This document shows, piece by piece, positions 1,331-48,710 of a stretch of 64,000 bases of DNA; within the stretch, counting starts at the first letter, position 1; each line of letters opens with the position of its first letter. Made by a program: the position numbers and the translations under genes. The stretch is from Buttiauxella selenatireducens. Lineage in GTDB: Bacteria > Pseudomonadota > Gammaproteobacteria > Enterobacterales > Enterobacteriaceae. Below the pieces are notes generated by a model that did no database searches, was not told the DNA's origin, and worked only from the letters and a program-made list of their open reading frames with translations. The stretch covers positions 2,356,001 through 2,420,000 of the forward strand of contig NZ_CP133838.1 of NCBI RefSeq assembly GCF_031432975.1. The letters are read 5' to 3'.

Positions 1331-4006
1331 ATGTCGTTAACCCTACGCGAGGCCAGTAAGGACACTCTACAGGCGCTGAATAAAACCTATCACTATTACA
1401 GCTTGCCACTGGCCGCAAAGGAACTTGGGGATATCACCCGTTTACCCAAGTCGTTAAAAGTTCTGCTTGAAAACCTGCTGCGCTGGCAGGATGAAAACTC
1501 CGTTACTCAAGACGATATTCAAGCTTTGGCCGGTTGGCTGAAAAATGCCCATGCCGATCGCGAAATAGCTTATCGCCCCGCACGTGTATTGATGCAAGAT
1601 TTTACCGGTGTTCCCGCCGTTGTGGATTTAGCCGCGATGCGCGAAGCGGTAAAACGTCTTGGCGGCGATGTCGCCAAAGTCAATCCGCTTTCCCCCGTTG
1701 ATCTTGTTATAGACCACTCCGTGACCGTCGATCATTTCGGTGATAACGATGCTTTCGAGGAAAACGTGCGCCTCGAAATGGAACGTAACCACGAGCGATA
1801 TGTTTTCCTGCGCTGGGGCCAACAGGCATTCAGTCGTTTTAGCGTAGTGCCACCTGGCACCGGGATCTGCCACCAGGTGAACCTGGAATATCTTGGTAAA
1901 GCGGTGTGGAGTGAAATGCAGGGCGATGACCTGATCGCCTATCCGGACACGCTGGTCGGTACGGATTCCCACACCACCATGATTAACGGCCTTGGCGTAT
2001 TGGGGTGGGGCGTTGGGGGTATTGAAGCTGAAGCTGCCATGCTAGGTCAGCCAGTTTCAATGCTTATCCCGGATGTTGTCGGGTTTAAACTTGATGGTAA
2101 GTTGCGCGAAGGCATTACTGCGACAGACCTGGTTTTGACGGTTACGCAAATGCTGCGTAAGCATGGCGTTGTCGGGAAATTTGTCGAATTTTATGGTGAT
2201 GGGCTTGACTCTCTACCGCTGGCAGACCGCGCCACTATTGCCAATATGGCGCCTGAATATGGTGCGACCTGTGGTTTCTTCCCGATTGATGCGGTGACAC
2301 TCGATTACATGCGTTTAAGTGGGCGCAGCGAAGAACAAATCGCGCTGGTTGAAGCTTATGCGAAAGTGCAGGGGATGTGGCGAAACACCGGCGATGAACC
2401 GATATTTACCAGCACCCTTGCACTGGATATGAATAAAGTTGAAGCCAGTCTTGCCGGGCCGAAACGCCCGCAAGATCGTGTCTCGCTGAGTGACGTGCCG
2501 AAAGCGTTTAACGCCAGCAATGAACTCGAACTCAATACGTCGCAAAAAGACCGGGCTCCGGTTAATTACACGATGGCCGGGCATGAGTATCAGCTACCCG
2601 ATGGTGCGGTCGTCATTTCCGCAATTACGTCGTGTACTAATACTTCAAACCCCAGTGTTCTGATGGCCGCAGGGCTGTTGGCGAAAAAAGCCGTGACATT
2701 AGGATTGAAACGTCAGCCGTGGGTGAAAGCGTCTTTGGCTCCGGGTTCTAAAGTCGTTTCAGATTACCTGGCAAAAGCGGGATTAACACCTTATCTCGAT
2801 GCGCTTGGTTTTAATCTGGTGGGTTATGGCTGCACGACGTGCATTGGTAACTCAGGTCCGCTGCCTGACCCCATTGAACAAGCCATCAAGAAGGGCGACC
2901 TGACTGTGGGTGCGGTGCTATCCGGTAACCGTAACTTTGAAGGGCGCATCCACCCGCTCGTGAAAACAAACTGGCTGGCTTCGCCGCCGCTGGTGGTGGC
3001 CTACGCACTGGCTGGGAACATGAATGTTAACCTGACCACCGATCCGCTGGGGCATGATAAAAAGGGCGATCCGGTTTATCTCAAAGATATTTGGCCGAGC
3101 AGCCAGGAGATTGCCCGTGCCGTTGCGCAAGTTACAACCGAAATGTTCCGCAAAGAGTATGCGGAAGTGTTCGAAGGCACACCAGAATGGCGCAATATTG
3201 AAGTGGCTCACTCCGATACTTACGGTTGGCAGAGTGATTCTACTTACATTCGGCTGTCGCCATTCTTTGATGATATGGAAGCTGCGCCTAAACCTTTGCA
3301 GGATATCCATGGCGCGCGCGTGCTGGCCATGCTGGGTGATTCGGTCACCACTGACCATATCTCTCCAGCAGGGAGCATCAAGCCTGATAGCCCCGCTGGG
3401 CGTTACCTGCAAAATCACGGGGTTGAACGAAAAGAGTTTAACTCCTACGGTTCGCGTCGTGGCAACCATGAAGTAATGATGCGCGGGACATTTGCCAACA
3501 TCCGTATCCGCAACGAGATGGTGCCGGGAGTGGAAGGTGGCATGACACGCATGCTACCGGGAGACGAGGTGATTTCGATTTATGATGCCGCGATGCGTTA
3601 TCGGGATAAAGGTATTCCGTTGGCGGTGTTTGCCGGCAAGGAGTATGGCTCGGGTTCCAGTCGCGACTGGGCAGCAAAAGGGCCGCGTTTGTTAGGCGTA
3701 CGAGTGGTCATTGCGGAATCCTTTGAACGAATTCACCGTTCTAACCTGATTGGCATGGGCATACTTCCGTTGGAATTCCCTGAAGGTGTGACGCGCAAAA
3801 CGTTAGGTCTGACTGGCGAGGAGTTTATTGATATCAGTGGCCTCAATGACCTTAAACCGGGCATTTCGGTGCCGGTATCTTTGACTTTTGAGGACGGCAG
3901 AACAGAGGTGATTCAGTGCCGTTGCCGTATTGATACCGGCAATGAACTGACGTATTTCAAAAACGACGGCATTTTGCATTACGTGATTCGTAACATGCTG
4001 AACTAG
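1331..4006 (+). CDS. acnA: Aconitate hydratase A
   Basis: AcnA converts citrate to isocitrate through cis-aconitate in the TCA cycle. It is the stress- and stationary-phase aconitase, more resistant to oxidants than AcnB. The 891 residues equal the E. coli length. The iron-sulfur cluster cysteines are in SCTNTSNP (about residue 435) and [11 protein letters not shown] (about 500). The C-terminal swivel domain has the typical [17 protein letters not shown] motif. The start has a strong AAGGAGGAG ribosome site 6 bases upstream. The gene stands alone between small ORFs and a shared terminator with ribA. The upstream 170 bases should hold its promoters, but no operator is assigned. Confidence 0.97.
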
Positions 4007-4041: not shown

Positions 4042-4635
4042 TTAATCTTTCGACAGCAAGTGGCCCATTTTAGCGGCTTTGGTATCCAGATAATGTGCGT
4101 TTTTCGGGTTACGGCCCACGATGAGCGGCACGCGTTCAACAATATTAATTCCCGCTTCGCTGAGAATTTCTACCTTGCTTGGGTTGTTGGTCAGCAAGCG
4201 AACGGCATCGATACCCAATAACTTAAACATATCAGCACAGAGAGTGAAGTCACGCTCATCGGCGGCAAAACCGAGTTGGTGGTTGGCTTCAACCGTATCG
4301 TAGCCCTTATCTTGCAAGGCATAGGCGCGGATTTTATTAAGTAAACCAATATTGCGGCCTTCCTGGCGGTGATACAACAGTACGCCACGACCTTCTTCGG
4401 CAATTTGGCTTAATGCAGCTTCAAGCTGAAAACCACAATCGCAGCGCAGGCTGAATAGGGCATCGCCCGTCAGACACTCTGAATGTACACGCGCCAAAAC
4501 AGAATCATTTCCGTTTACATCACCAAAAACCAAAGCAACGTGATCTTGCCCGGTTGCCAGTTCTTCAAAACCCACCATCAGGAAATCGCCCCATGGGGTT
4601 GGCAGTTTGGCCTCTGCCACACGTTTAAGCTGCAT
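4042..4635 (-). CDS. ribA: GTP cyclohydrolase II
   Basis: RibA opens GTP to 2,5-diamino-6-ribosylamino-pyrimidinone phosphate, releasing formate and pyrophosphate, the first step of riboflavin synthesis. The 197 residues start [18 protein letters not shown]. The zinc-binding C-x10-C-x-C set is visible in [20 protein letters not shown]. The RQEGRNIGL segment, and [18 protein letters not shown] further on, are standard for the family. The gene is monocistronic and convergent with acnA, as in E. coli. A conventional ATG start is used. Confidence 0.97.
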
Positions 4636-4843
4636 GTGATTCTCCAGGTACTTATCGTGGCACTCAGGGTGCCTGCCAGCAGACTGGCTTGTTTAATTAC
4701 TACTGCTTAGTTTGCCACAACGCCGACCACTTCGCCTAATAGACTGGGCAGACTCCTATTTTTACCCTTTGTGCGACTTCCCGTTTTCCCTTCGGTGCGG
4801 TTTATCGGGTATCCTTGAGATTCAAAAAGCATAAGGATAAGCA

Positions 4844-17464: not shown

Positions 17465-17510
17465 GCTCTCTCCTGAACCGGGGCCGACATATCGCGTCAG
17501 TCTGATATTC

Positions 17511-17526
17511 ATATTAGCAATATAAA
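17511..17526 (+). other. Attachment core, left copy (next to integrase)
   Basis: ATATTAGCAATATAAA is identical to 48510-48525 in the same orientation. It lies 47 bases upstream of the rpfR ATG and about 90 bases from the integrase stop. The text after it differs between the two copies (GCCCGATAG against ACCGATCTC), as expected at attachment junctions. Confidence 0.85.
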
Positions 17527-17584
17527 GCCCGATAGCCCTAAATTATTGAAAACAATATTTAAAATGTATCTTATTGTTGTGGTA

Positions 17585-17617: not shown

Positions 17618-18841
17618 TTATCCCAGTTTTGCGTTTAACATTTCAATCTGGTCATCGCTCATCCGCGCTATCCATTTTGAGTAAACGGAATAAACCATCT
17701 GCGCATTCTCGTGCCCCATCTGGCTCGCAATAAATGAGGGGTTTGCCCCTGCAGAGAGTAACCAGCACGCATATGTATGGCGCGTGTGATACGGAGTGCG
17801 GTGGCGCACTCCTGACTTCACAATAGCCTGCTTCCACGATCTATTAATAGTATTTGTGGAATAATGCCTGCTTTGCTGTCCAAGATTTGGCCGTGGCATA
17901 AAGCAAAATCTCAGTGATTGCCGCTCCGTCTTTCCGTGCTCACGATGATAATAGATTATTTCTAGGGGACTTTTATAGTAGGTGAGCTCTTTTTGACGAA
18001 CAAGAGCCTCAAGTGCGGGTTTCAGTAGTTTAACCGTTCTGACCCCAGCGTTGGTTTTAGGCGGGCCAAATTGTTTAGCGAGAGTAATTGTTCTTCCTAT
18101 ATGTACCTCACCGTTATCAAAATCCACATCCTCCCAGGCTAGCCCTGTTAACTCACCATGGCGGAGCCCGCTGTATACGGCGAGTATCCACATATTTAAA
18201 GCAGAGCCTTTCCAGTACCTGGACAGACTCTCAAATTCATCTTTCATCAACGGGTCGGGATCACGTGATGTTTTTTTCAGCGTCTTTACATTATCATGTG
18301 GCAAGTGATGGATGTAGTTGCTCATTTGTGCAAATTTGAACATCCGGCAAAGCTGGCCGATATACAAATTAACCGTTCTAACAGTCCTTCCGCCTTTAGT
18401 CCTCGACTTAAGTTCCCCTTCCAGTAAGCGCTTTCTATAGAGCAAAACATCATTGTGTTGAATGTCTAAAAGTGGCGTATCAGGGCCAATCATCAACGTT
18501 AATAATTTACTGATTGAGCGGGTGCCTATCATCGATGATGGTGAAATCTCGATCTCTTTGACAGCATGGTAAGCATTACAAAGCTCGCTAAATGTAGAAA
18601 CGCTTTGAACGGGGGATATAAACTTCTTTAACGACTTGCTTTCAGGAAAGCGGGTTTCATATTTAAAGTTACCAAGCTGGATTTCACTGCAGATGACTGC
18701 ACGTAAATTGCCAGCTTTTTTGATGTTTGCAGGGGTAACACTCCATCCTTGCAGGACTTCTCTACACCGGGTGTTTCTGAACTTGAACGAAATCCTGATT
18801 TTTCCGTTATGAATTTCAACACCGGTTGGAAACCCTGCCAT
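17618..18841 (-). CDS. Prophage tyrosine integrase
   Basis: The 407-residue tyrosine recombinase has an N-terminal arm-binding region (MAGFPTGVEIHNGKIRISF), a core-binding SAM-like domain (about 95-190) and a catalytic domain. Catalytic residues visible are Arg in YSGLRHGEL, the H-x2-R box in TRHTYACWL with GHE further on, and the nucleophile Tyr in YSVYSKW near the C-terminus. All are present, so the enzyme may still be active. Its stop lies about 90 bases from the attachment core. The start touches the excisionase stop. Confidence 0.93.
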   Translation of the reverse strand: MAGFPTGVEIHNGKIRISFKFRNTRCREVLQGWSVTPANIKKAGNLRAVICSEIQLGNFKYETRFPESKSLKKFISPVQSVSTFSELCNAYHAVKEIEISPSSMIGTRSISKLLTLMIGPDTPLLDIQHNDVLLYRKRLLEGELKSRTKGGRTVRTVNLYIGQLCRMFKFAQMSNYIHHLPHDNVKTLKKTSRDPDPLMKDEFESLSRYWKGSALNMWILAVYSGLRHGELTGLAWEDVDFDNGEVHIGRTITLAKQFGPPKTNAGVRTVKLLKPALEALVRQKELTYYKSPLEIIYYHREHGKTERQSLRFCFMPRPNLGQQSRHYSTNTINRSWKQAIVKSGVRHRTPYHTRHTYACWLLSAGANPSFIASQMGHENAQMVYSVYSKWIARMSDDQIEMLNAKLG

Positions 18842-28377: not shown

Positions 28378-28668
28378 TTAACGATTACGCCGGTTAATTA
28401 TTTCCGTTGTAACTGCCTCATAGAGTTGATCTTGAAGGGCATTCAACTCATTGTTTTCACGAACTAACATTTGCCCCTTATGATGTAGCACTAAGTCATT
28501 GAACGAGCCAGCCCCACCAAATGTATGTTTTATATCGCTCAAAGCGGTGTCGTAATCTAAATCTAGTTTTTTGCTGAGTTGTTCAAATGCAGCGGCCCAT
28601 CTTTCCTCATCGTTATTTGAAAGGAGTAAACTGATTTTTGTTAACAAATGCTGAATGTTCGTTTTCAT
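28378..28668 (-). CDS. DUF6966-like protein, likely immunity protein
   Basis: The 96-residue protein (MKTNIQHLLTKISLLLSNND) contains ERWAAAFEQL, ALSDIKHTFGGAGSFNDLVL and LNALQDQLYEAV, as I recall for DUF6966. Its start overlaps the stop of the Hcp-toxin gene by 4 bases, the position expected for cognate immunity. The function is inferred from that position. Confidence 0.68.
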   Translation of the reverse strand: MKTNIQHLLTKISLLLSNNDEERWAAAFEQLSKKLDLDYDTALSDIKHTFGGAGSFNDLVLHHKGQMLVRENNELNALQDQLYEAVTTEIINRRNR

Positions 28669-29834
28669 TTTAAGCCACCAAAATCTAATATTTGTACTCC
28701 CGGAATATCCCAGGGTGCTGGAATTAGCACTTGCTCAGCCCCACCAGAATAGATGTCGGTTTGATACCCGACCTCCCCTACATAAACTTTTGCTCCTGCG
28801 GGTATTTTCACTTCAAAGTAGCTATCAATGATTGATTTATCTCCATTCGGCCACGCAGGAAGAACTGCGCTATCGATACGCGTTTGGATTATACCGCCGG
28901 GTTTCTCGTAACTAAAAAAACGTCCCAGACTAACGCCATCCTGTCCGCCTCGATAGAAGATAGTATCCTTAGATAACGTTATCTCTTTATAAGCGCCGCC
29001 AGAAAATGTTTCGGCAAATCGGTTACTCAGTGGCCCTGGATTCATCATCGAATACTCGCCTTCAACTGTCCCCAGAACGTGGAGATTTTTCAGCTCGGAA
29101 AGCTCCTCTAACTCAGGGAATCGCATTCTTCCCATCGTTAGCCCAGCTGCAACAGACGCGCCAGCAATAAGTAAGCCTTTGTTATTCATTACCTGGGTAT
29201 AGCCTGCTTTAGTGTCACCGCCGAGTTGTACGGCGGTTTTACCAAACCCTTCAATATTCCCGTTGTAGATTCCACCTGCTGCCAATAAACGACCGGCGGC
29301 CTTGCTATTAATGGTTTGAATCGGTTTTTCAGCCTGTACGGCAGGGCTGTGGGGGCTGAATAGACTGTTGTAATTAGCAGGTAGGGCCAGGTAGCTAAAT
29401 TCAGTGCTCGCCGTCAGGTGCTTGCATAGAATGTAGTCATACCTGACTGTAATCACTTCGGTATCAAGAGTGTTATTTGAGACATTCACACTGATATCAA
29501 CCAGCGAAGCCCCACGCAGTTCGATGCTGTAATACTTCTCCCACATTCCGTACCGGCTTATTCGGTAGAAGTTGAATTCGAGAGCAAGCTTCTCGTTATT
29601 CGTAATTGCTGTAGTCAGTAATGGACTGCTTTTGTCGATTAGCTTAGTGAAACTCAGTCCCTGTAAATTAACCCCTTTACCCGTTCCCGTAATACTGCTG
29701 GACAAGCTGAATGTGAATATCTCATTCTCATGCCCCAGCTGAAACCGATTACCTATTGAGGCTTCAGTCCCGCAACCGGCTGAAATATCTCCTTGCCGCT
29801 CACCGCGCATTTTCAGATAAATAATGTCGCTCAT
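28665..29834 (-). CDS. Hcp with C-terminal toxin extension (type VI secretion effector)
   Basis: ATG 29834 gives MSDIIYLKMRGERQGDISAG, the start of an Hcp tube protein. The Hcp domain covers about residues 1-155 (IDKSSPLLTTAITNNE, FYRISRYGMWEKYYSIEL). A linker with a hydrophobic stretch follows (LLIAGASVAAGLTM, about 215-230), then a C-terminal domain (about 250-389). This last part has YRGG (R295), FFSYE and a late GGAEQVLIPAP (E367), resembling ADP-ribosyltransferase-type toxins; that reading is inference. Ordinary Hcp is about 160-170 residues. Two small immunity-type genes follow. No other type VI gene is in the window, so a chromosomal apparatus elsewhere must deliver it. Confidence 0.85.
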   Translation of the reverse strand: MSDIIYLKMRGERQGDISAGCGTEASIGNRFQLGHENEIFTFSLSSSITGTGKGVNLQGLSFTKLIDKSSPLLTTAITNNEKLALEFNFYRISRYGMWEKYYSIELRGASLVDISVNVSNNTLDTEVITVRYDYILCKHLTASTEFSYLALPANYNSLFSPHSPAVQAEKPIQTINSKAAGRLLAAGGIYNGNIEGFGKTAVQLGGDTKAGYTQVMNNKGLLIAGASVAAGLTMGRMRFPELEELSELKNLHVLGTVEGEYSMMNPGPLSNRFAETFSGGAYKEITLSKDTIFYRGGQDGVSLGRFFSYEKPGGIIQTRIDSAVLPAWPNGDKSIIDSYFEVKIPAGAKVYVGEVGYQTDIYSGGAEQVLIPAPWDIPGVQILDFGGLK

Positions 29835-30107
29835 TCCATTCCGTCCTATCCGTGTCATTAATCCATAATAAACGTATGAGAACTGGAACGAAGCTGCCAG
29901 CCAGATGATGAACAGCACCTAGGCAAAACAAACACCTGATTGAGCCAATCGCCATGCCGCAGTGATGAAGTCAGGGCAGTGGCAGCCTACCCAATGCTAG
30001 GAAATGCTAGTTCGCAGCAAAGGTCAGGAAACATATGAAAGCTCCGACACCAAAGAAGCCAAAGACCAGAGCAAAGCAAAAAGACTGCAACCTCCAGCAG
30101 CTCGCAT
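29835..30107 (+). other. Scar of degraded phage sequence
   Basis: The stretch holds pieces without a full gene. One is a short frame giving AVAAYPMLGNASSQQ. Another is a 26-residue frame at 30035-30115 (MKAPTPKKPKTRAKQKDCNL) with AGG upstream, which runs just into the next remnant. They look like the cut front ends of structural genes joined to the back part of the helicase gene by deletion. Confidence 0.4.
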
Positions 30108-33100
30108 TTAAATGAATTCCTTGGTCCAAAAGGGACCGAGACAACCGTTTCGGCAGTCGATCCGGAGATTGAGCCGTTTAGCGGTCGTATCCGGGTATTA
30201 CTCGGTTCTACGGCGAAAATGGGTGCAGGTATGAACGTCCAGGATCGTCTTGTGGCACTTCACCACCTCGATGCACCGTGGCGTCCATCCGACCTTGAGC
30301 AGCGTGAAGGCCGCATCATACGTCAGGGCAATAAGCTGTACGACGCCGATCCTGAAAACTTCCAGGTTGCCATCAATCGCTACGCCACCAAACAAACCCT
30401 CGACAGCCGTATGTGGCAGACAATTGAAGGTAAAGCTAACTTCATCGAGCAGGTCCGTAAGGGTAATAGTGATGTGCGTGAAATTGAGGATATTGCTGGA
30501 GAAGCTGCAAACGCTGCCGAGATGAAGGCCGCATCAAGTGGCAATCCACTTATTCTGGAAGAGATGTCACTGCGCCAGCAGATTCGCAAGCTGAACAACG
30601 AGCGTGTTGGCCATGACCGCGAACAATATCGCCTGCGTGATGCTATCCGGAGTGCTGAGCGCATTGAGGCAGTCGCCGATAGCCGCCTGAAAGAGTTGAA
30701 GCACGACGCGAAGCTCGAGCAGCCGAAGCAGTTTGTTATGACAATTGATGGCGAAACTTACGATAAGCGTAAGGACGCTGGCGACGCAATTCTGAAGGCC
30801 GCTATGCAGTTGTCGAAGTCGGGTAAGGATGACGCCATGATCGGTAACTATGGCGGTTTCAACATTCATGTAGAGCAGGGTGACTACACAAATAACTTCC
30901 ACCTCTCGCTTGTGGGTGAGGGTAGTTATACCACTGATTTCACCAGTGAAGCCGACCCTGTGGGCCTGGCGATGCGCGCCACGAACACAGTGAAAGACCT
31001 CGACGGTGCTGCTGAGCAGATGGAAGACGCCAAGGTACGCGCTCAGGCTGATATTCCGAAACTTCAAAAGCAAGTTAAACCTTGGCCTAAGCAGGAAGAA
31101 CTTAAAGATGCGAAGCAGCTACACGCTGATGTTCTTGAGCAGTTGAAGCCAAAAAATAAACAAGCAGCTGACGATAAGGTCGAAAAAGCCAAGGATAGCA
31201 ACCCGGATGTTCGTTATAGTCTGTTTTCTCCGTCGAAAAAGCCTGGGAACGGCATCCCATTAGCGGAGTTACAAAACGTTGTTGATGATATGGCAGCGTT
31301 ATACAACGGGAATATTCCACTGACTATTCGGGCAGTGGAAAGCATGGAGGAATTATATGGATCAGACATCTCAGAAGACGTGCGAAACGCAAAAGGATTC
31401 TATCTCCCAACCGGAGCCAGAATACCTGGAGTTACCGCATCCGATTTATATAACGTTGGGGAACAACCACAATCCGGACAGCGAGGAATGGCGGCGCTGG
31501 TTGCGAGAAACCTGCGGTCAAGAGGAGATGCCAGAGCAACGTTCCGACACGAAGTCCTTGGACACTTCGGGCCTAACACGTTTACTCCGGATGATAAGGC
31601 GGATCTTCTCAAGAGAATAAGCGAAACTCGCGACGCTAAGGAATTGCAGCCGTACTGGGATAGTATTGACAGTAGTTATGGTGATGCCACTGAATCCCTT
31701 AAAGCCGAAGAAGTGTTTGCGCGTATTGCCGAAGAGAGCGAGGCATACAAAAATCCAACCTGGCGCACGAAGGTTCTTAATTTCTTAAATAAGCTACTTC
31801 GTAAAATCGGCTTATCCAGACGTCCACTTACCCTGTGTGAATTACGTGAAACCGCCAGCGCCATATCAAAAGGCATCCGTTCTGGCGAGCGTACGCAAAA
31901 AACATTCCCTCGAAACAATCAATCTTAATTCTCAAAAGGCACAGTCGAAAATCAAGGGGCATTTGACCCGAATAATCCTGATATCCGTTACAGTCTTGCA
32001 AACCCCAAAGTCGCCAGCGATCAGCAGCTGGATGATTACCTGAAGAAAAACGTCTGGGATAAAATCAAGGATATGTCAGCTGATGCGCTGCCCCACGCAA
32101 TGCCGAAACTATTGGCTACGGTACCACTGCGTCCGTTGGTTACCGTTGAGGGCTTCTCCAGATTCGAGACCCCCGCGGCTCAACGCAAATTCATCGAACA
32201 AATGGCACGAGATAAGGATGTTACAACAGAGCATGGCGTGCTTGATGACACGAACTCAGTCAGTAAGCAGATAGACCACAAACTTTGTGGCTGATATTGA
32301 AAATATTGTTGGTGGGTTGCCCGGTGGAGATCGTATCAAAGACGAAATCTGGCAGCGCTATCTTGAAACCTAACCTGATATGTCTGTGCGCAAAAATCGC
32401 ATTCACCGTAAAGGCACCGAAGGCTTTACTAAAGATGCAATAAGGGCGTTTGCGGACCATATGTTCCACGGCTCGCACCAACTTTCGAAACTTGAGTACG
32501 CCATGGATATGGGGGAGGCCATCGACTCTGCCCGCAAGGAGGCTGCCGAAGATCGCTCAGATACTAACAGAGCGACTCATCTGGTGAATGAGGTGCAGAA
32601 GCGCAATGAGTTCATAATGAATCCCACTGGAGGTGCCGTGGCGCACGCTATTTCCCAGGCTGGCTTTATCTATCACCTGGCAGCAACACCTGCGGCGGCG
32701 ATGGTTAACCTGTCACAATCCGTGATTCTTGGTGTGCCCATCATGTCCGCATATCTGAATAAGAATAATCCGGCAGTCTCCAGTGGGAAGGTTTCAAAGC
32801 AGTTGATAAGGGCAACAGCGGACTTCACTCGCGGGAAAGGTTGGATTGAAAAGTCTAAAAAACTAACGCCTGACGAGAAGAAAGCGATGGAAGTCGGTTA
32901 TGCAACCGGCACCATTGACAGAACGCAGTCTCATGACCTGGCTGGTGTAGCGGAAAGTGGTATTTCTTATAACGCCACACGGCAGAAAGTTATGAAAGGC
33001 CTTGGCTTTGCGTTTCATCACGCAGAGCGCTTCAACCGCGAAGTGACCTTTCTGGCCTCTTACCGCCTGGCGAGACAAGAAGGTGAAAGTCATGACAAGG

Positions 33101-34152
33101 CTATCGATACCGCCAACGATCTGACGTGGAAAGTGCATTTTGACTATCAGAACACGTCCAGGCCGCGCGTAATGCAAAATGATACGGCAAAGGTTTTGCT
33201 GTTATTTAGAAACTACAGCGCCAACATGCTCTATCGACTGGCGCGCGATGTCTACAAATCCATTAACCCGAAAGATCCTGCTGAGCGTAAAGAGGCGCTA
33301 ACTCAATTTGCAGGTATAACCGGAATGATGATGCTCCATGCTGGAGTGAGAGGTACATGGTTCTTTGGTATTGCTACGGCGATTGCATCTGTCTTTATGG
33401 ATGACGGGGATGATCCCGAAGAAGAAATGAAGAAAGCGATGATAGATGCCATTGGACCAACGGCTACTGGTCTTGCGCTAAATGGGGTACCGGGGCATGC
33501 TCTGGGGTGGGATCTGAGTGGACGTATCGGGATGCCGGATCTGTGGTTCCGTTCGTCCTATAAAGAACTCGAAGGTGAAGATGCCTATAATTATTGGCTA
33601 TCTCAGGCGGCAGGTGCTGCACCATCAATGGCACTTAACGCCTTCAAGGGTATGGCTATGGCCGCGAAGGGTAATGTCTATCGTGGCATAGAGACGGCAA
33701 TGCCGAAAATCATCAAAGATCAGATGCGCGCCTACCGTTATATGACGGATGGTGCGGAAACGATGAAGGGTGATGACATCTTGCCAGAAATGACTCCGTG
33801 GGAAGGAATTAGCCAATCGCTGGGCTTTGCTCCAGCAGCTCTGTCTGAGCGCTACAAGCAAAACAGCGCCAACATGAACAAGCAGGAAGCTATTCTGGCT
33901 GCGCGTAGCAACTTGCTGAGTCAGTATTACAAAGCGGATGAGGCCAGTAATGAGGCTGAGCTGGATAAGCTCGATAAGGAAATCGATAAATTCAGTGACA
34001 AATATCCTGAGCAGAAAATCACTGGCAAAACACTAAATCGTTCAATTCGTACTCGAGAGAAAAATAGTGACCGGAATGTCGGAGGGATTAACTACAACGA
34101 GAAGCTGAAAGACCGGATCCTGAATGAACAGTCGATGTCCATCTACAGATGA
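30108..34152 (+). pseudogene. Decayed 3' part of a giant phage helicase/polyvalent protein with PLxRFG-type end
   Basis: The open part starts without its own start codon (LNEFLGPKGTETTVS). It encodes the end of an SNF2-like helicase (MGAGMNVQDRLVALHHLDAP, REGRIIRQGN), then a coiled region, a zincin-like box RHEVLGHFG (about 31,552 on), and from 32,380 the long hydrophobic tail typical of PLxRFG proteins (LLLFRNYSANMLYRLARDV). It is broken by TAA at 31926-31928 (same frame continues), by a frame change near 32270-32281, and by TAA at 32371-32373. The N-terminal methylase and helicase parts, usually thousands of residues, are missing. ATGs at 30219 and 32380 are internal. Confidence 0.82.
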
Positions 34153-40350: not shown

Positions 40351-41253
40351 TCACGTGTTCTCGTTTTGGAAGAAACTTAAAAACTGAACGGTTTGCTGAT
40401 TCATGGTTTCGATGACCGCCAGATGCTCAGTTTTTTTCCACTTAATGCCGATGATGTGCAGCAAATCACGATAAAAAACACTGAATTTCCCCCATGGGTA
40501 AAGGATCGCTAATCCGTTATCCATTTGTTCCAACCATGTGTGGCAATGGCTATTTAATTGAATGGTGTACGTTAGTACGTCGTTATATTGCTTCTCGAGT
40601 TCTGGTTTTAGTGCGCGCAATTTTTCATGCTCTTGTTCAACGAGCGCTTCTTGGTCCTGAAAGGCGCGAGCTTTGCTCCAGGCACCTTTCGCTGCAAAAT
40701 AGATTATCGGCGCCGCGACGATCCCCCCCAGTACCAACATACCGCCGCTCATTCCCGCTCCGCCAGCAGCGAGCGCACCACCTCCGAACCAGGCAAGTGT
40801 CGCATTGGTTGCTGCTACACCTGACAACGTGCCGATGGCCGTACCCGTGGACGCGGTGCCAATGGCTGATACAAGCGCCCATGCACCCAATGCCATTGAG
40901 CCACCTACAATCCCACCAAATCCCACGCTGAGTACACCGGAATACTGTTGATTAAATCGCTCTATACTTTGCGAAGCTCGCATTGTTGGTCGGGACTGTT
41001 TGTCGAGAGAGATAGAAGTGGTTTCTAACACTTGTTCTATATGCTCCAGTCTGGCTTTTACTTTTTTTAGCGTGTCACCCAACTCACTAATACGATTATC
41101 AATTTTGTTTTTTATTCGCGTTACTTCGTCATGCGTTATTTTATAGTAAGCATGAGTGGATTCGAAACTTGCTTTCGCATGCTCTAATTCCAGCGATCCA
41201 CCGAGTGTGACAATAGCATTCGCGGTGCGAAGCCCTGCTTTTAATAATCCCAT
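40351..41253 (-). CDS. Coiled-coil protein with long Gly/Ala-rich hydrophobic segment, unknown
   Basis: The 300 residues have an N-terminal coiled coil (about 35-90, TRIKNKIDNRISELGDTLKK). Then comes a Gly/Ala-rich hydrophobic block (about 105-190) with glycine-zipper spacing (GFGGIVGGSMALGAW, AWFGGGALAAGGAGMSGG). A second coil follows (about 195-235) with a mixed end. Such blocks occur in membrane-inserting or pore-forming proteins. It starts 16 bases after the HNH-nuclease gene on the same strand, so they form a two-gene operon. A membrane effector partnered with the nuclease is a possible reading, not proven. Confidence 0.65.
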   Translation of the reverse strand: MGLLKAGLRTANAIVTLGGSLELEHAKASFESTHAYYKITHDEVTRIKNKIDNRISELGDTLKKVKARLEHIEQVLETTSISLDKQSRPTMRASQSIERFNQQYSGVLSVGFGGIVGGSMALGAWALVSAIGTASTGTAIGTLSGVAATNATLAWFGGGALAAGGAGMSGGMLVLGGIVAAPIIYFAAKGAWSKARAFQDQEALVEQEHEKLRALKPELEKQYNDVLTYTIQLNSHCHTWLEQMDNGLAILYPWGKFSVFYRDLLHIIGIKWKKTEHLAVIETMNQQTVQFLSFFQNENT

Positions 41254-41269: not shown

Positions 41270-42241
41270 TTAAACTTGGATTGCTTTTATTATTAGGTGT
41301 AAAGGGCCATACATTTCAGTAAATCTTTTCCACCGTTCGACAAGAGCTCCACGATTAACTTTGTACGCAACATGCAATTTTTTCCCATGATACCTTGTGT
41401 ATTCTTTATCTTGGATCTGCGGAGCAAAGTAAATAAGGAACGAGTCCGGTTCGATAGAAAATAGATCCAGATCGTACAAAGTGTGCATGTCACAACGTAG
41501 TAATAGCCCATTGCTTATGTGGTTGTGTGTATCATTTTTGTATGCCGTGATATGCGCAGCTTCAAGGATATCAACGATTGCACAATTACTAACTGCACAT
41601 TGAGCCGCTTGGGTTATCAAACTGTCACGAAATGCTTTTTGCCCGCGTCGTTGCTTAATTTGCCGGATAACTGCTTTTCTCTGATCTTCTGCCTCGAGAG
41701 TAGTATCATCACTGTCCGCTTCGGTAGGAGCCAATTGAATTATATCGCCAAACAGATTACTTGCCCATTCGAAATTAATTTCTTGAATTGAACTCTGAAC
41801 GTTGTAGCGTAGAGTGTTTGATATTAAATCTGTTATGGACACAGAGTTAATGGGCTTGTAGTTTTTTTTATATTCAGCTTTAAATTCCACCGCGGAAGTG
41901 TCTTCTGCATTAGGGCGATTAAATTCATGCCCATTGCTGCAGCGCCACTCTGGCTTTTTAAATTTTCGATGAGTTAACTTTGCTGGTGTGCAATTTTCAT
42001 GTGGGCACCGGTTACGAATTTTTATGTATGAAGATGATGATAAACTGTCTATAACTGATATCCCTAGGATATTTTTTCTATCCGTTATTATGACAATATC
42101 ACCTTTTTTTACCTGTTTATGGTTTGGGACAAAGTTGTCATATCTGTAAAAACTAGTTGAGTCGTCTTGATAACCATTATTCCCAAAGTACCGGAGATCA
42201 TCCTGACCAACTGCTTTAAAAGACCATGCCTTTTGATTCAT
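41270..42241 (-). CDS. HNH endonuclease with PUA/EVE-like N-terminus, candidate type IV restriction enzyme
   Basis: The 323 residues end in an HNH domain: CAVSNCAIVDILEAAHI (about 215-231, His 230), ISNGLLLRCDMHTLYDLDLF (Asn 244, His 253). This is the HNH type seen in modification-dependent enzymes. The front (about 1-70, KKGDIVIITDRKNILGISVI) looks like a PUA/EVE barrel that could read modified bases. A Cys/His knuckle lies between (CPHENC ... CSNGHEF, about 79-105). Parts are seen in sequence; the restriction role is inferred from the family layout. Confidence 0.75.
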   Translation of the reverse strand: MNQKAWSFKAVGQDDLRYFGNNGYQDDSTSFYRYDNFVPNHKQVKKGDIVIITDRKNILGISVIDSLSSSSYIKIRNRCPHENCTPAKLTHRKFKKPEWRCSNGHEFNRPNAEDTSAVEFKAEYKKNYKPINSVSITDLISNTLRYNVQSSIQEINFEWASNLFGDIIQLAPTEADSDDTTLEAEDQRKAVIRQIKQRRGQKAFRDSLITQAAQCAVSNCAIVDILEAAHITAYKNDTHNHISNGLLLRCDMHTLYDLDLFSIEPDSFLIYFAPQIQDKEYTRYHGKKLHVAYKVNRGALVERWKRFTEMYGPLHLIIKAIQV

Positions 42242-42582: not shown

Positions 42583-45500
42583 GTGGCAATCTTTGATATT
42601 GAAAAAGACGAATTACTACGCCTCTCTGATACTCATCTAGAGGAGTTGATTGCTCGCCTCGCTGAAGCCGAGGTAGCCGCCAATGGCCATAGCCCTGCGT
42701 GTGTAAATTGGTCTGGCTCAATCACTGCTCCCGATGGAGGAATTGATATTCATGTTCAGGTTCCAGTCGATCAACTGAGTACTGGGTTTATCGAAAGACC
42801 TGACACGATCCTACAGGCGAAGAAACATAAGATGGCAAAGGCTGCTATCGAGAAGGAAATGGGTACCGGTAAAGAACTGTCATCGACGATTTCAGAGCAA
42901 GCTACAAGGCAAGGCAGTTACATCATTGTCAGCTTAGGTGATGATTGTTCTCCGCTAGGAAAAGCGGAGCGTCTCAAAGCAATGCGGGATGCTGTGAAAG
43001 ATGATCCCAATAAAAGCAATATTCATCTTGATTTCTACGACCGCTCCAAACTCATTCAATGGTTACGCCAGCACCCGTCGGTTATGCTCTGGGTAAAAGC
43101 TAAACTCGGTCTAGGCTCTTCCGGTTGGCAACCATACGGCGCATGGAGCAACCCACCACAAGGTGTTGTGGATACATTGATTTCAGCCCCTGGTGTTACG
43201 ATTTCTTTGCCACCAGGAAAGGGACAAAAACTCAATATAGATGATGCAATCGGCCCAATGCGAGCACTTATTAGTGCTACTCATAAGGCCGTTCGCATTA
43301 CAGGACTCTCCGGAGTTGGGAAGACTAGGATCGTTCAAGCACTCTTCGATGAAACTATTGGAACAGATGCCCTTGACCGAACGCTAGCTGTTTATGTCGA
43401 TACTGGCGCTGAACCTGAACCCTCCGCAACGGCAATGCTGGACAGGCTTATTGCAGAGGGCAGACGTGCCATTATGATCCTCGATAATTGCCCATCAGAA
43501 TTACACTCTTCGCTTGCTAGTAAAGTCTCAGCTGCGGGCAGAGAGGTCAGGCTCATCACTATTGAGTACGACATAAGAGACGACAAACCTCAAACGACCG
43601 AGGTCATCCATATTGAGGCTGTTGGACCAGAGTTGGCCGAACAGCTTCTGACCCGTCGTTTCAACGGTATCGGTCAAAACAATGTACGTCGGATTGCCGA
43701 GTTTGCTGATGGGAATGCAAGGGTATCCTTGGCAATTGCTGAACGGGTTGAGGAGGGGGAGAGTTTGGCTCAGCTTTCTGACACGCAATTGTTTAACCGC
43801 CTGTTTGAACAGCGCAATCATCCTGATGGTGATTTACGAGAGCAAGCTGAAATATTGTCTTTGGTATATTCGTTCCCGATCTCACCCTTTGACTCGGGTC
43901 CTAATGAATTGGATGTATTGGGCTCGCTCATTGGACAAACCAGTAACCAATTGTACCGAGCAGCCAGTAAGCTGTTAGTCCGCCAAATTGTGCAGAAAAG
44001 GGCTCATTGGAGGGCTATTCTGCCCCAAGCTATTGCGAATAAATTGGCAGCTTCTGCACTTGATAATATTCCAATTAGCCAGCTCAGGGAGACTTTTGAA
44101 GCCACTGGTAGACAACGCTTATTAATGTCGTTTGCACACAGGTTAGGGCTATTACACGACCATCCCGTAGCTACAGAGATCGTTGAAGCTTGGTTACAGC
44201 CTGAAGGACTGTTGGGGCGGATAACGAAGTTAGACGACATCTCGTTTCGAATGCTGAATTATATCGGCCCGGTTGCCCCTGAAGCATTACTCGATCGGCT
44301 CAATGCAGAGCTTACTTCATCGAATTTTGAAGGTATGGAGGCGGGTTACAATCCACGGCGGACGAGCATACTCAATCTTTTGCAGTTATTGGCATATGAA
44401 TCGCATGATTTTAAACGGAGTGTCAGGCTCTTAATCCGTTTAGCAGATTGCGATAACGTGAGCAAAAACAATGATTATGCTCAGAATAAGATCACGAGGT
44501 TTTACCAGGCGTATTTGTCAGGAACACACGCCTCTTTGGAACAACGTGTTGCGATCATGAATGAATGCCTTGCATCAGACATCGCCGGGCGTAGATCTCT
44601 AGGCGTTAAAATGCTTGAAACTGCTCTTGGCGGGCCACGGTGGACAGGATTCGGGGTAAATGAGTTTGGTGCTCGACCAAGAGATTATGGATTTCGTCCC
44701 AACTACAATGAACTTGCTGAGTGGCGCAGCGCCTTCATTGACGTTGCGGTGAGATTAGGAACCTCCGGTATCCCCGATTTTGAAGACGATGCGAGGATGA
44801 TCCTAGCTAATAAGTTTCAAGCGATATGGCGCCAGGAAGCCATGAGGGTAAAACTTATTGATGCGGCCCGCACATTACACGCCTACCGTCCATGGGGGGA
44901 AGGTTGGAAAGCTGTCCGCTCAACGATTTATTTTCTTCATACCAAGAATGTGAATAGGGAAGGTTTAGAGCCATTACCGGATATGCTCGCCGTATTGGAG
45001 AGAGAATTAGAACCTACTGATTTGATTCCGAAAATAATGGCTTATGTGCTTTGTAAGGGACGTGATTATTGGGCACTAAGTTCCGATTTTGCTCATGATG
45101 AGCCTAATAAATTGAGTAAAATTAGAGAGCATCTTCAAGATAAAGCATTCCTGCTGGGTCAGGACTTTGCGGCATCCAGCTATAAACTTGATGAGTTGGG
45201 CCCGAACCTATTCTTAAGTGATGGGATGCCATATCGCACTGCATTTGGTCGGGGCTTAGCGAAAGGAGCACACGACCTGCGAGTTAATTGGACGCAACTC
45301 ATCGTTCAATTGGATCTGCAACCTACTTCACTCAAAGATTTTTCGGTCATTTGCGGTTACATTGAAGAGTCTGATTCTATTGATTCAGAATTAGCGCAGG
45401 AGCTGCTTGAACAGTGTGCGCAGCATTCTGAACTTCGACGCGTATTAGTCAACTTGCACCCCAGGAGAGCATTCACTGAAATCGACTTGGATCGCTGTAT

Positions 45501-46434
45501 GGCGATTCTAAATGCGCCTGAAATTCGGCCGATTATGTATGGAGCAATCCTGTGGAGGCAGCAATATACCAATTTGCCAGAAAAACGAGTTCTCGCACTT
45601 GCACAGGGGCTCTTGAGTAAACCGAATGGTGAAGACGTTGTTTTGGAGGCTCTAAGTATGAGACTACCGGACAAAGAGGAAGCTGTTGATACTCTGGGCC
45701 ACGATCTGAGATTGGTCGGCCTAAGAGCTGCTATTCTAAAGTTCCAAAGAGATGACAACGACTCCGGCAATGGAACTGATTATAACATGGCACGAGTTGT
45801 CAGTTGCGTATTGCGTTTCGATGGTCACGAGACTGAAAAGCTGGAGTGGTTGAATACAATCTTTTCTATTGTGGATAAGCATTATGGAAACATTTATTCG
45901 TTCGAAAACTCTATCGGAATAACAGCAGCATTGATGCCAGAAGAATTCCTCAATCGCATTTTTGAGGGTACGGCAGAACAACAAAGGCGACGTTTGAATT
46001 TTATTCGTTATGATGGTTTGAGTGAGTCTCCTCTTGTCAAAATCGACATAGGCGTTTTGATTGCGTGGTGTCGGGCCAGAACTGATCCTCGCGTATGGGC
46101 TTCAGTCGCTACAGGAATATGTCTTTGGTCTGAGGATAGCGGGCAGGATGTTATTACCTTGCTAGACGAAGCTTTAATGTTCCTAGAGGTTTCACCCGAG
46201 CCACGAGCTGTGCTTGAATCTTTCGCAGAACGAGTCACACCTTCCTCATGGTCCGGTAGTCAAGCAAACGTAATGCAATTAAGAGCGAACGCCATAGGCA
46301 AGTTGGTCAAACACAAGCGAGCAGATATTGCTGAGGTAGCCAGAGCTGTGTATGAGAAACTGATTTATTGTGTTGAACTCGAAAAAGAACGTGAGCAGAG
46401 GGAAGATGAGGAACGGGAGCAAAGGTATGAATGA
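42583..46434 (+). CDS. Large nuclease-STAND ATPase, candidate antiviral protein
   Basis: The 1,283-residue protein starts at GTG 42583 (AAGG upstream). The N-terminal domain (about 1-175) has a PD-(D/E)XK-like set, PDGGIDIHVQV (D51, D55) followed by ILQAKKH (Q78, K80). A P-loop ATPase follows: GLSGVGKTR (241-249) and Walker B AIMILDNC (297-303). The remaining 900 residues are helical, probably a repeat-type sensor. A nuclease fused to a STAND ATPase and a long sensor is the design of Avs-type antiviral proteins. I cannot place it in a named subtype. The C-terminus is a charged helix. It is divergent from the HNH operon. Confidence 0.75.
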   Translation: MAIFDIEKDELLRLSDTHLEELIARLAEAEVAANGHSPACVNWSGSITAPDGGIDIHVQVPVDQLSTGFIERPDTILQAKKHKMAKAAIEKEMGTGKELSSTISEQATRQGSYIIVSLGDDCSPLGKAERLKAMRDAVKDDPNKSNIHLDFYDRSKLIQWLRQHPSVMLWVKAKLGLGSSGWQPYGAWSNPPQGVVDTLISAPGVTISLPPGKGQKLNIDDAIGPMRALISATHKAVRITGLSGVGKTRIVQALFDETIGTDALDRTLAVYVDTGAEPEPSATAMLDRLIAEGRRAIMILDNCPSELHSSLASKVSAAGREVRLITIEYDIRDDKPQTTEVIHIEAVGPELAEQLLTRRFNGIGQNNVRRIAEFADGNARVSLAIAERVEEGESLAQLSDTQLFNRLFEQRNHPDGDLREQAEILSLVYSFPISPFDSGPNELDVLGSLIGQTSNQLYRAASKLLVRQIVQKRAHWRAILPQAIANKLAASALDNIPISQLRETFEATGRQRLLMSFAHRLGLLHDHPVATEIVEAWLQPEGLLGRITKLDDISFRMLNYIGPVAPEALLDRLNAELTSSNFEGMEAGYNPRRTSILNLLQLLAYESHDFKRSVRLLIRLADCDNVSKNNDYAQNKITRFYQAYLSGTHASLEQRVAIMNECLASDIAGRRSLGVKMLETALGGPRWTGFGVNEFGARPRDYGFRPNYNELAEWRSAFIDVAVRLGTSGIPDFEDDARMILANKFQAIWRQEAMRVKLIDAARTLHAYRPWGEGWKAVRSTIYFLHTKNVNREGLEPLPDMLAVLERELEPTDLIPKIMAYVLCKGRDYWALSSDFAHDEPNKLSKIREHLQDKAFLLGQDFAASSYKLDELGPNLFLSDGMPYRTAFGRGLAKGAHDLRVNWTQLIVQLDLQPTSLKDFSVICGYIEESDSIDSELAQELLEQCAQHSELRRVLVNLHPRRAFTEIDLDRCMAILNAPEIRPIMYGAILWRQQYTNLPEKRVLALAQGLLSKPNGEDVVLEALSMRLPDKEEAVDTLGHDLRLVGLRAAILKFQRDDNDSGNGTDYNMARVVSCVLRFDGHETEKLEWLNTIFSIVDKHYGNIYSFENSIGITAALMPEEFLNRIFEGTAEQQRRRLNFIRYDGLSESPLVKIDIGVLIAWCRARTDPRVWASVATGICLWSEDSGQDVITLLDEALMFLEVSPEPRAVLESFAERVTPSSWSGSQANVMQLRANAIGKLVKHKRADIAEVARAVYEKLIYCVELEKEREQREDEEREQRYE

Positions 46435-46539
46435 AAAACAATCCATATTTCCGCTTTACGCACCTCTAGCAGCCTGTCAGGCTTAATTCCTGTTTCACAA
46501 CTCTCTTGCGGTCAAGCTGTAGCTTAGGCATGAGGCTCG

Positions 46540-47223
46540 CTACAAACTTGCTTTGTCGGTTTTTTTGATGAGTTCCGGGCTTTGGTTCTTCACATTCCCA
46601 ACCGCTAGAGAAACAGGATGCCAGGTAAATTCATCTGCCGACACCGCAGCATCATGGACCAGTTCACTGGCCTGTGCCCCAGTCGTTTCCGGATTCATCC
46701 ATTCAAGTGCTGCTCTGGATGTAAACACTAAAGGCCTGCGGTCGTGAATATCGATCAGTCCCTTATCTGCAGCTGCGGTCACAATTAAAAATCCCGCTGC
46801 CTCATCTCCCACATCAAACGGCTGCTTACCAATAGCTGCAAAGAAAAGTGGCTTTCTGTCTTTCCTGTAGATGTAATACGGCTGTTTTTTGTCACCCGCT
46901 CGCACCCACTCATACCAACCATCAGCAAACACAATTGCCCGACCATGATTCCACAGCGGCTTAAACATCCTGCTGGTGGACGCCGTTTCTACCCTGGCAT
47001 TTATCAGAGGTGCTTTGTCCCACCAACTAGGAGCGTATGACCAGATAACGGGATCGAGGTGAAGGGTACCTTCACGGTTATTTAGCAGGAGAACTTTGGT
47101 GCCGGGCGAGACGTTGTACCTCCCGATAGGCTCGGGATCGTAAGGGATTTCACTTTCAGCTTCTTCTAAAAGAAACTCGATATAGTCGTCACGAGACTGA
47201 ATTTGAGTAAAGCGTCAGCACAT
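46540..47223 (-). pseudogene. yedK: YedK-like SRAP (abasic-site crosslinking) protein, stop at codon 3
   Basis: SRAP proteins use Cys2, exposed after Met removal, to crosslink abasic sites in single-stranded DNA. Here the minus-strand frame from ATG 47223 reads M-C-stop-R-F-T-Q, where the family has MCGRFAQ. The Gly3 codon is TGA, one base from GGA. The rest, 224 codons, is open and typical (IGRYNVSPGTKVLLL, NARVETASTS, FADGWYEWV, DIHDRRPLVF, AVGNVKNQSPELI). An internal ATG (46968) would give 142 residues without the active Cys. It is either a fresh pseudogene or a base error. Confidence 0.85.
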
Positions 47224-47277
47224 AGCTAGCTCCAGTCATCTAACTTATAGTATGGGGCAATCCACCTTATTACCTAC

Positions 47278-48102: not shown

Positions 48103-48509
48103 TTTTTACGTCGTAATAATGTGGAATAGTGGGGGACAACCGCATATGCGGTATTGGCCTCCAGCATATAGTGTTTAAGCTGTATGAAATGCCAGCTTCG
48201 GGCACTAAGCGGCCTATCAAATCATATATAGCAACGCGGTGCGATACCAGAAATTAGCCCCTGATTTTCTGCTGAAGGTGATCAAAAAATTGGCAAAGAC
48301 CGGTCATCAAAATACGAAAGGTAGTGACAGAATAGCAAAGATTTTGGGGGCAAATTTGGGGGCAAAAAAGGGACAAATTAGTAAAAGGGGCATGGCTAGG
48401 GGCATCAAATTAGCTGATATTTGCAACTATTTGCCGTTGCGATAATTTATAACTCATTGTTTTAAAGGTAAATTAATGATTTATAAGATATTCGGAAATT
48501 GCTTTCTTT
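48103..48509. other. Right prophage arm with GGGGCA repeats, no gene
   Basis: This arm contains GGGGGCA at 48346-48352 and 48358-48364 and GGGGCAT at 48387-48393 and 48399-48405, each pair 12 bases apart. They match the GGGGCAT pair at the left end. An open frame at 48239-48445 runs across them but has no ribosome site and is rejected. The arrangement suggests arm-type integrase sites. Confidence 0.5.
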
Positions 48510-48525
48510 ATATTAGCAATATAAA
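48510..48525 (+). other. Attachment core, right copy
   Basis: ATATTAGCAATATAAA is the second copy of the 16-bp direct repeat. Host sequence leading to the rnb terminator begins right after it. Confidence 0.85.
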
Positions 48526-48710
48526 ACCGATCTCAAAGTAACAACTATATGTAAAAATGATTGTTTTTACAGAATATGTGGGAAATCTGAATCTTCGGCG
48601 CTAGATTGTCAGTTTTTTAGGCGTTATAGCAAGTAAAAAAAGTGTTACGACTCTAATCATTTCCCGGGTGTGACTATTACTCAAAATCCAATCGTGAGAG
48701 AACAACGCAA

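Follow-up and report, generated by a model that had tools for sequence, protein, structure and literature searches.

A homologue of PD-lambda-4 component A without a detected partner gene in Buttiauxella selenatireducens

We analysed a stretch of 64,000 nucleotides from Buttiauxella selenatireducens (contig NZ_CP133838.1, positions 2,356,001 to 2,420,000; hereafter the window). Judging from its sequence, the gene at positions 42583-46434 of the window is a member of an already named family: it is a homologue of component A of the PD-lambda-4 system, standing without a detected component B (the two genes are called A and B below). We consider it fairly likely that this orphan component works as a receptor similar to prokaryotic NLR and Avs proteins, for which we infer sensing, oligomerisation, DNA cleavage, protection and function without B. 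The gene and its parts are located in the window as follows.

42583..46434, plus strand: PD-lambda-4 component A homologue of 1,283 amino acids (nuclease, STAND ATPase, helical solenoid); open reading frame (ORF) and PADLOC PDLC03991, 2255 bits
42583..43122, plus strand: Mrr-like PD-(D/E)XK nuclease-type domain, residues 1-180 (D51, D55, Q78, K80); motifs and hhalign
43123..44262, plus strand: STAND-type P-loop ATPase and mostly helical region, residues 181-560 (Walker A 241-249, Walker B 296-303); AlphaFold2, Foldseek and Pfam
44263..46431, plus strand: nearly all-helical HEAT/armadillo-like solenoid, putative sensor, residues 561-1283; AlphaFold2, Foldseek and VIA

Identity and conservation of the gene

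The frame begins with GTG and stays open for 1,283 codons up to a stop codon ending at 46434, in agreement with the coordinates, strand and length given in a preliminary description of this DNA. The match of PDLC03991 covers positions 2-1283 of the 1283 of the protein family profile. At an E-value (E) of at most 1, three PADLOC profiles matched the window protein, every one of them PD-Lambda-4_A, and none of the PADLOC Avs models did. The protein is 73% identical over 1,283 residues to the copies at two Escherichia coli loci (L053 and L054). Thus, the suggestion of a candidate new antiviral protein did not hold, as the full-length match to PD-Lambda-4_A rules out a new antiviral family.

Relatives of A were found at 44 loci in a collection of species genomes, including Enterobacterales, Halomonas, Marinobacter, Shewanella, Janthinobacterium and Roseobacter-type bacteria, hence the gene is conserved. 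In an alignment of the window protein with 34 relatives, all 35 rows share residues D51, D55, Q78 and K80, every position of the P-loop GLSGVGKTR (241-249), and D301-N302-C303. In the remainder of the Walker B stretch AIMILDNC (296-303), L300 is almost fully conserved, and positions 296-299 vary. All of these motifs had been listed in the preliminary description and are in place. As many Pseudomonadota have relatives that align along the entire protein, this conservation is more than chance.

No match to A was found among 50,697 phage records. Plasmid records gave 43 matches of 72,556, every one below 60% identity, and IMG/VR gave matches at six putatively viral loci. A promoter scan 5' of A yielded two sites, both on the minus strand, vs. 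1.4 expected.

Domain architecture

Residues 1-180 contain the motif string E...DGGIDI...QAKK. A profile of 19 A rows, compared by hhalign with an Mrr_cat profile for which 13 of 18 listed matches were used, gave a probability of 90.8 (E 1.2e-6, 63 columns), with DGGID and QAK placed onto the Mrr motifs, while in the control comparison of the Mrr profile with the C-terminal half of A the probability was 0.2. All 18 distant rows (22-38% identity) retain the DxGxD and QxK positions; several of these rows are partial, and two (L107 and L110) represent one gene. The similarity to Mrr (PF04471, Mrr_cat) lies in the same order of motifs, E...DGGxD...QAK; the difference is that only residues about 11-90 of A align, and that A combines the nuclease-type domain with an ATPase and a solenoid. 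Mrr is one of the modified-DNA restriction enzymes. We conclude, from the sequence motifs and profiles, that the front of A is an Mrr-like, nuclease-like domain, as had been proposed.

The middle part was assigned by fold only. With the AlphaFold2 model of residues 1-560 (predicted local distance difference test, pLDDT, 83.0), the first match in Foldseek was Avs4 with portal (13% identity), followed by the STAND protein 6mfv, Apaf-1 and NLRs. In Pfam scans at E <= 0.1, AAA_16 was found in all 35 alignment rows and NPHP3_N in 31 of them. The modelled middle of A thus appears to fold like STAND ATPases, in line with the earlier proposal of a STAND ATPase, and we call it STAND-like.

The model of residues 500-1283 is almost entirely helical (mean pLDDT 85.9). 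According to both Foldseek and VIA, it is closest to HEAT/ARM solenoids, some of the matches being the DNA-repair proteins FANCI/FANCD2. Of the 900-residue helical tail described previously, the helical nature stands, and the length was somewhat overstated, as the helical repeats start around residue 500-560. Overall, the tail is less conserved in identity among the relatives than residues 1-560. Neither search has an Avs chain among its 50 listed rows for the tail, which may nevertheless be related to Avs. On the basis of the model, the tail may be considered a putative sensor.

Distribution of gene B

At L053 and L054, a gene of 303 amino acids lies 45 bp after A; that of L053, the one tested, matches PD-Lambda-4_B over residues 1-303. 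Pfam gave no domain match in B. The corresponding place in the window is

46435..46539, plus strand: stretch 3' of A where B starts in relatives having B; no B here (tblastn, genome search)

Several candidates for B in the window were rejected. A truncated B start 3' of A is contradicted by the negative tblastn, and a short frame across the stop codon of A does not resemble B starts by eye. Neither the HNH gene (41270-42241) nor the SRAP gene (46540-46968) matched PD-Lambda-4_B, and so neither is a stand-in for B. The search for B in the complete genome also gave no match, though 13 of the 246 genomes of the family gave one; all such counts rely on similarity to the E. coli B, and a highly divergent B could escape.

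The 36 genome loci considered come from pattern scans based on the window protein, which favour near relatives. One of them (L037, with 102 bp downstream of A) was set aside, and the other 35 with at least 250 bp downstream were assessable; these include near-copies (L016/L022/L028; L018/L038), a partial A (L034) and broken ones (L042, L046). B was present at 6 and absent from 29 of the 35 loci. By organism (the order being read from record titles), it was found at 6 of 12 loci in Enterobacterales and at none of 23 outside Enterobacterales. A class-wide census gave B in 0 of 369 genomes, which is weak evidence because this sample lacks close A (the window genome aside, the A matches are 22-38% identical).

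Within the sample of 246 family genomes, A matches were observed in 18, two of them (G023, G222) being small fragments. Full-length A at no less than 69% identity occurs in 11 genomes, the genome of the window included, with a B match beside A in seven and none in four. In E. coli, of 5,426 genomes 185 have A-like DNA (165 over most of its length) and 147 have B (143 over most of its length). At four E. coli loci (L111-L114), A is open and the first B frame has 248 codons vs. 303; a following frame of 51 codons is annotated in three of the four.

A tree built from 43 A proteins places every one of its 12 rows with B in a single clade of 17 rows, which also contains the window protein and four other rows lacking B. 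As the fork of the window protein is open, its lineage may either have lost B or never have carried it. The tree was made by a quick method, with L037 scored as having no B and L059 scored as having full B despite a stop; six identical proteins had been removed before the identity table and the tree were made. These distributions look like gain of B within Enterobacterales, with B sometimes lost or shortened.

Comparison with known systems

PD-lambda-4 apparently goes back to a study in which E. coli DNA was functionally selected with phages T4, lambda-vir or T7 (PMC9519451, Vassallo et al. 2022), as its PADLOC name and the citing review PMC10952713 indicate; the string lambda-4 does not occur in the main text of PMC9519451. 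That study reports 21 candidates cloned as an ORF or operon, each of which lowered plaquing, counts homologues only if all components are present, and mentions a CoiA domain without naming the system. The passage of the review PMC10952713 that names PD-lambda-4 gives only a P-loop nucleoside triphosphatase (NTPase) domain for it, and PMC13268207 has it in a DefenseFinder listing. The literature searched contained no mechanism for PD-lambda-4 and no paper joining Avs, STAND, CoiA, a retron and a nuclease effector. The window A matches component A end to end; it differs from the known arrangement in having no detected B, which L053 and L054 have, and in its location on a lambdoid-type remnant, the L054 copy being at ssrA.

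PMC12931631 describes STAND defence proteins as comprising an effector, an NTPase and a sensor, and both it and PMC12724215 give terminase or portal as the targets of Avs1-4, whose nucleases act upon recognising them (PMC12931631); Avs5 senses another phage protein and has TPR-like C-terminal repeats (PMC12931631). Since the targets of Avs differ, the ligand of A cannot be assumed.

A resembles the Avs (AVAST) proteins Avs1-4 and Avs5 in its order of an N-terminal effector, a central STAND ATPase and a long helical C-terminus, in having Avs4 as the best Foldseek match of residues 1-560, and in its nuclease-type N-terminal domain, comparable to the nuclease effectors of Avs1-4. Thus, the Avs-like sensor-effector architecture suggested by the preliminary description is borne out by the domain order. 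In contrast, A matches no PADLOC Avs model, and the model of its tail is closest to HEAT/ARM solenoids. The sensor repeats at the C-terminus of Avs are TPR-like.

Possible mechanism and alternatives

If A is an Avs-like receptor, the C-terminal solenoid would bind something phage-made, allowing the central STAND ATPase to bind ATP and to oligomerise. The oligomer would bring together the N-terminal Mrr-like nuclease domains, and these, once assembled, could cut DNA, so that either the phage is stopped or the infected cell is killed. This gives a testable model for PD-lambda-4, namely, a nuclease-STAND receptor resembling Avs, whose sensor would be of the HEAT type.

A number of observations weigh against this reading. 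As regards the domains, the Pfam scans of the 35 rows did not detect the nuclease, bar DUF4365 at E 0.09 in one row, and residues 61-120, within the nuclease domain, have a variability of 0.61, matching parts of the tail. The Pfam STAND models stayed below their cut-offs; for nSTAND1 (PF20703), the gene is not among the ten matches in the genome, and the model is absent from the hmmscan lists. ORC and clamp-loader chains are also present among the Foldseek matches of residues 1-560, and for the ATPase model VIA ranks a Trip13 chain first and gives STAND, RFC, ORC and NSF chains with tied Z; as these rows are tied, VIA alone cannot separate STAND from other AAA+ proteins. The lower conservation of the solenoid can equally result from relaxed constraint. 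As regards B, tblastn with the E. coli B gave no match within the window, and the published PD systems were assayed as a whole ORF or operon. By comparison of coordinates, a B match adjoins A in 9 of the 18 A-bearing family genomes (three of the nine matches being short, in G052, G199 and G231, one containing a stop, in G015, and one split, in G148), and in E. coli the greater part of an A+B stretch is present in 131 of the 5,426 genomes. As most E. coli carriers of A, and half of the A-bearing family genomes, have B next to A, B may matter.

The chief rival is that the gene is what remains of an A+B operon after the loss of B, with A still open but inactive without its partner and to be lost together with the prophage. 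This would fit the position of the window A inside the clade holding all B-bearing rows, the truncated, split or missing B in several of its members, the presence of B in most E. coli carriers of A, and the decay of the element itself, with its two separate DarB-like fragments. However, the window A is fully open, its catalytic-type motifs are intact, and the lack of detectable B at all 23 assessable loci outside Enterobacterales means that A evidently persists alone in other bacteria. We therefore regard such a relic as unlikely, although a serious alternative.

The second rival, by which A directly recognises DNA (e.g. modified or foreign) and cuts it, being a type IV-like restriction factor with an AAA+/STAND motor, seems improbable: the kinship with Mrr as a modified-DNA restriction enzyme, the clamp loaders and ORC in the VIA list and the FANCI/FANCD2 matches of the tail would agree with it, but STAND immune receptors make up most of the leading Foldseek matches of residues 1-560, Avs and NLRs have the same order of effector, STAND and long helical repeats, and the Pfam scans reveal no separate DNA-recognition domain. 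In its favour, too, PMC9519451 reports that of 11 systems having a component that binds or cleaves DNA, 7 gave direct immunity and not abortive infection (Abi), the class of PD-lambda-4 not being visible there.

Returning to the receptor reading, a stronger version of it would be that A alone is a complete single-gene receptor distinct from Avs1-5, partnerless in many Pseudomonadota, with B being a late accessory of Enterobacterales, at times lost or broken. We put this forward tentatively, with the odds somewhat against it. If it is true, two-gene definitions miss the members lacking B, including every assessable genome locus outside Enterobacterales considered here. In any case, A often stands without B, above all outside Enterobacterales, and resembles an Avs-type receptor with what may be another kind of sensor; the window copy is a natural test case for A working alone.

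Carrying element and neighbouring genes

The element that carries A spans 31 kb between two copies of an imperfect 22-bp repeat, with A close to the right end:

17508..17529, no strand: left attachment-type repeat (repeat D4; empty site in a same-species genome)
17618..18841, minus strand: integrase of the element (phrog_1 integrase, E 7.7e-65)
48507..48528, no strand: right attachment-type repeat (repeat D4; empty site in a same-species genome)

The genes flanking the element resemble pdeR and rnb by eye. In the same-species genome G009, both flanks meet with a 22-bp overlap, hence the element is absent there. PHROG matches comprise the integrase, an exonuclease-like gene, repressor-, CII- and Kil-like genes, replication genes, a UmuD-like protein, a DNA polymerase and the two DarB-like fragments. 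The latter belong to one giant antirestriction protein in two pieces (30219-31928 and 32380-34152, plus strand; positions 2896-3226 and 4059-4647 of the 4647 of the profile), a sign of decay of the element. None of the 20 element proteins scanned fell in the head, packaging or tail category, several smaller ORFs being outside the scan. The element thus looks like a decayed, integrated remnant of a lambdoid-type prophage.

The preliminary description had noted a prophage carrier without portal or terminase genes, and the scanned proteins agree with this. Its further argument, that their lack would avoid self-triggering, is weak. The element has the look of a decayed remnant, none of the 20 scanned proteins being structural, so that no particular reason is required for portal and terminase to be missing. 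In the complete genome, the portal family PF04860 had no match and PF03237 had one elsewhere (22.4 bits vs. the cut-off of 22); with these as the portal/terminase families searched, the result tells little about self-avoidance.

In relatives, other defence genes are found beside A. A retron-type reverse transcriptase (RT) ends about 41 bp 5' of A at L010, L012, L014 and L036, and the same RT is shortened at L017 and split at L046, i.e. it occurs at 6 of 47 loci, the window excluded. The RTs of L010 and L036, the two tested, match PADLOC RT_VI (E about 6e-72), and a small protein is encoded further 5' of the RT, with an SP_VI match at L036. A conserved system of RT and A was rejected, given that the RT is present at 6 of 47 loci and has its own small protein, and the RT is treated as a neighbour. 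KAP-family ATPases lie 114 bp 5' of A at L023, L024, L031 and L032 and near A at L012, L013 and L014; those of L014 and L023, the two tested, match PADLOC PifA. In three family genomes, matches to an Avs2 profile within about 8 kb of A or its fragments (G015:C1:1193681, G096:C1:3518398 and G023:C271:8815) suggest shared defence islands.

In the window, the gene adjacent to A encodes an HNH_2 endonuclease protein (41270-42241, minus strand; PF13391, E 2.3e-8). It adjoins a gene at 40351-41253 (minus strand) that matches the PADLOC candidate PDC-M09A (E 3e-23), and the two may form another defence module. Elsewhere in the element, a protein with an Hcp domain and a long C-terminal extension (28665-29918, minus strand; T6SS_HCP, E 1.7e-15) is encoded beside a DUF6966 protein of 96 amino acids (28378-28668, minus strand); this pair resembles an effector linked to Hcp together with what may be an immunity protein. 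On the other side of A, still inside the element, the SRAP (YedK-like) gene at 46540-46968 (minus strand) retains the C-terminal part only (positions 89-214 of the 214 of the profile), and another stretch of the genome (C1:1199924) is 84% identical to the window DNA at 46906-47236.

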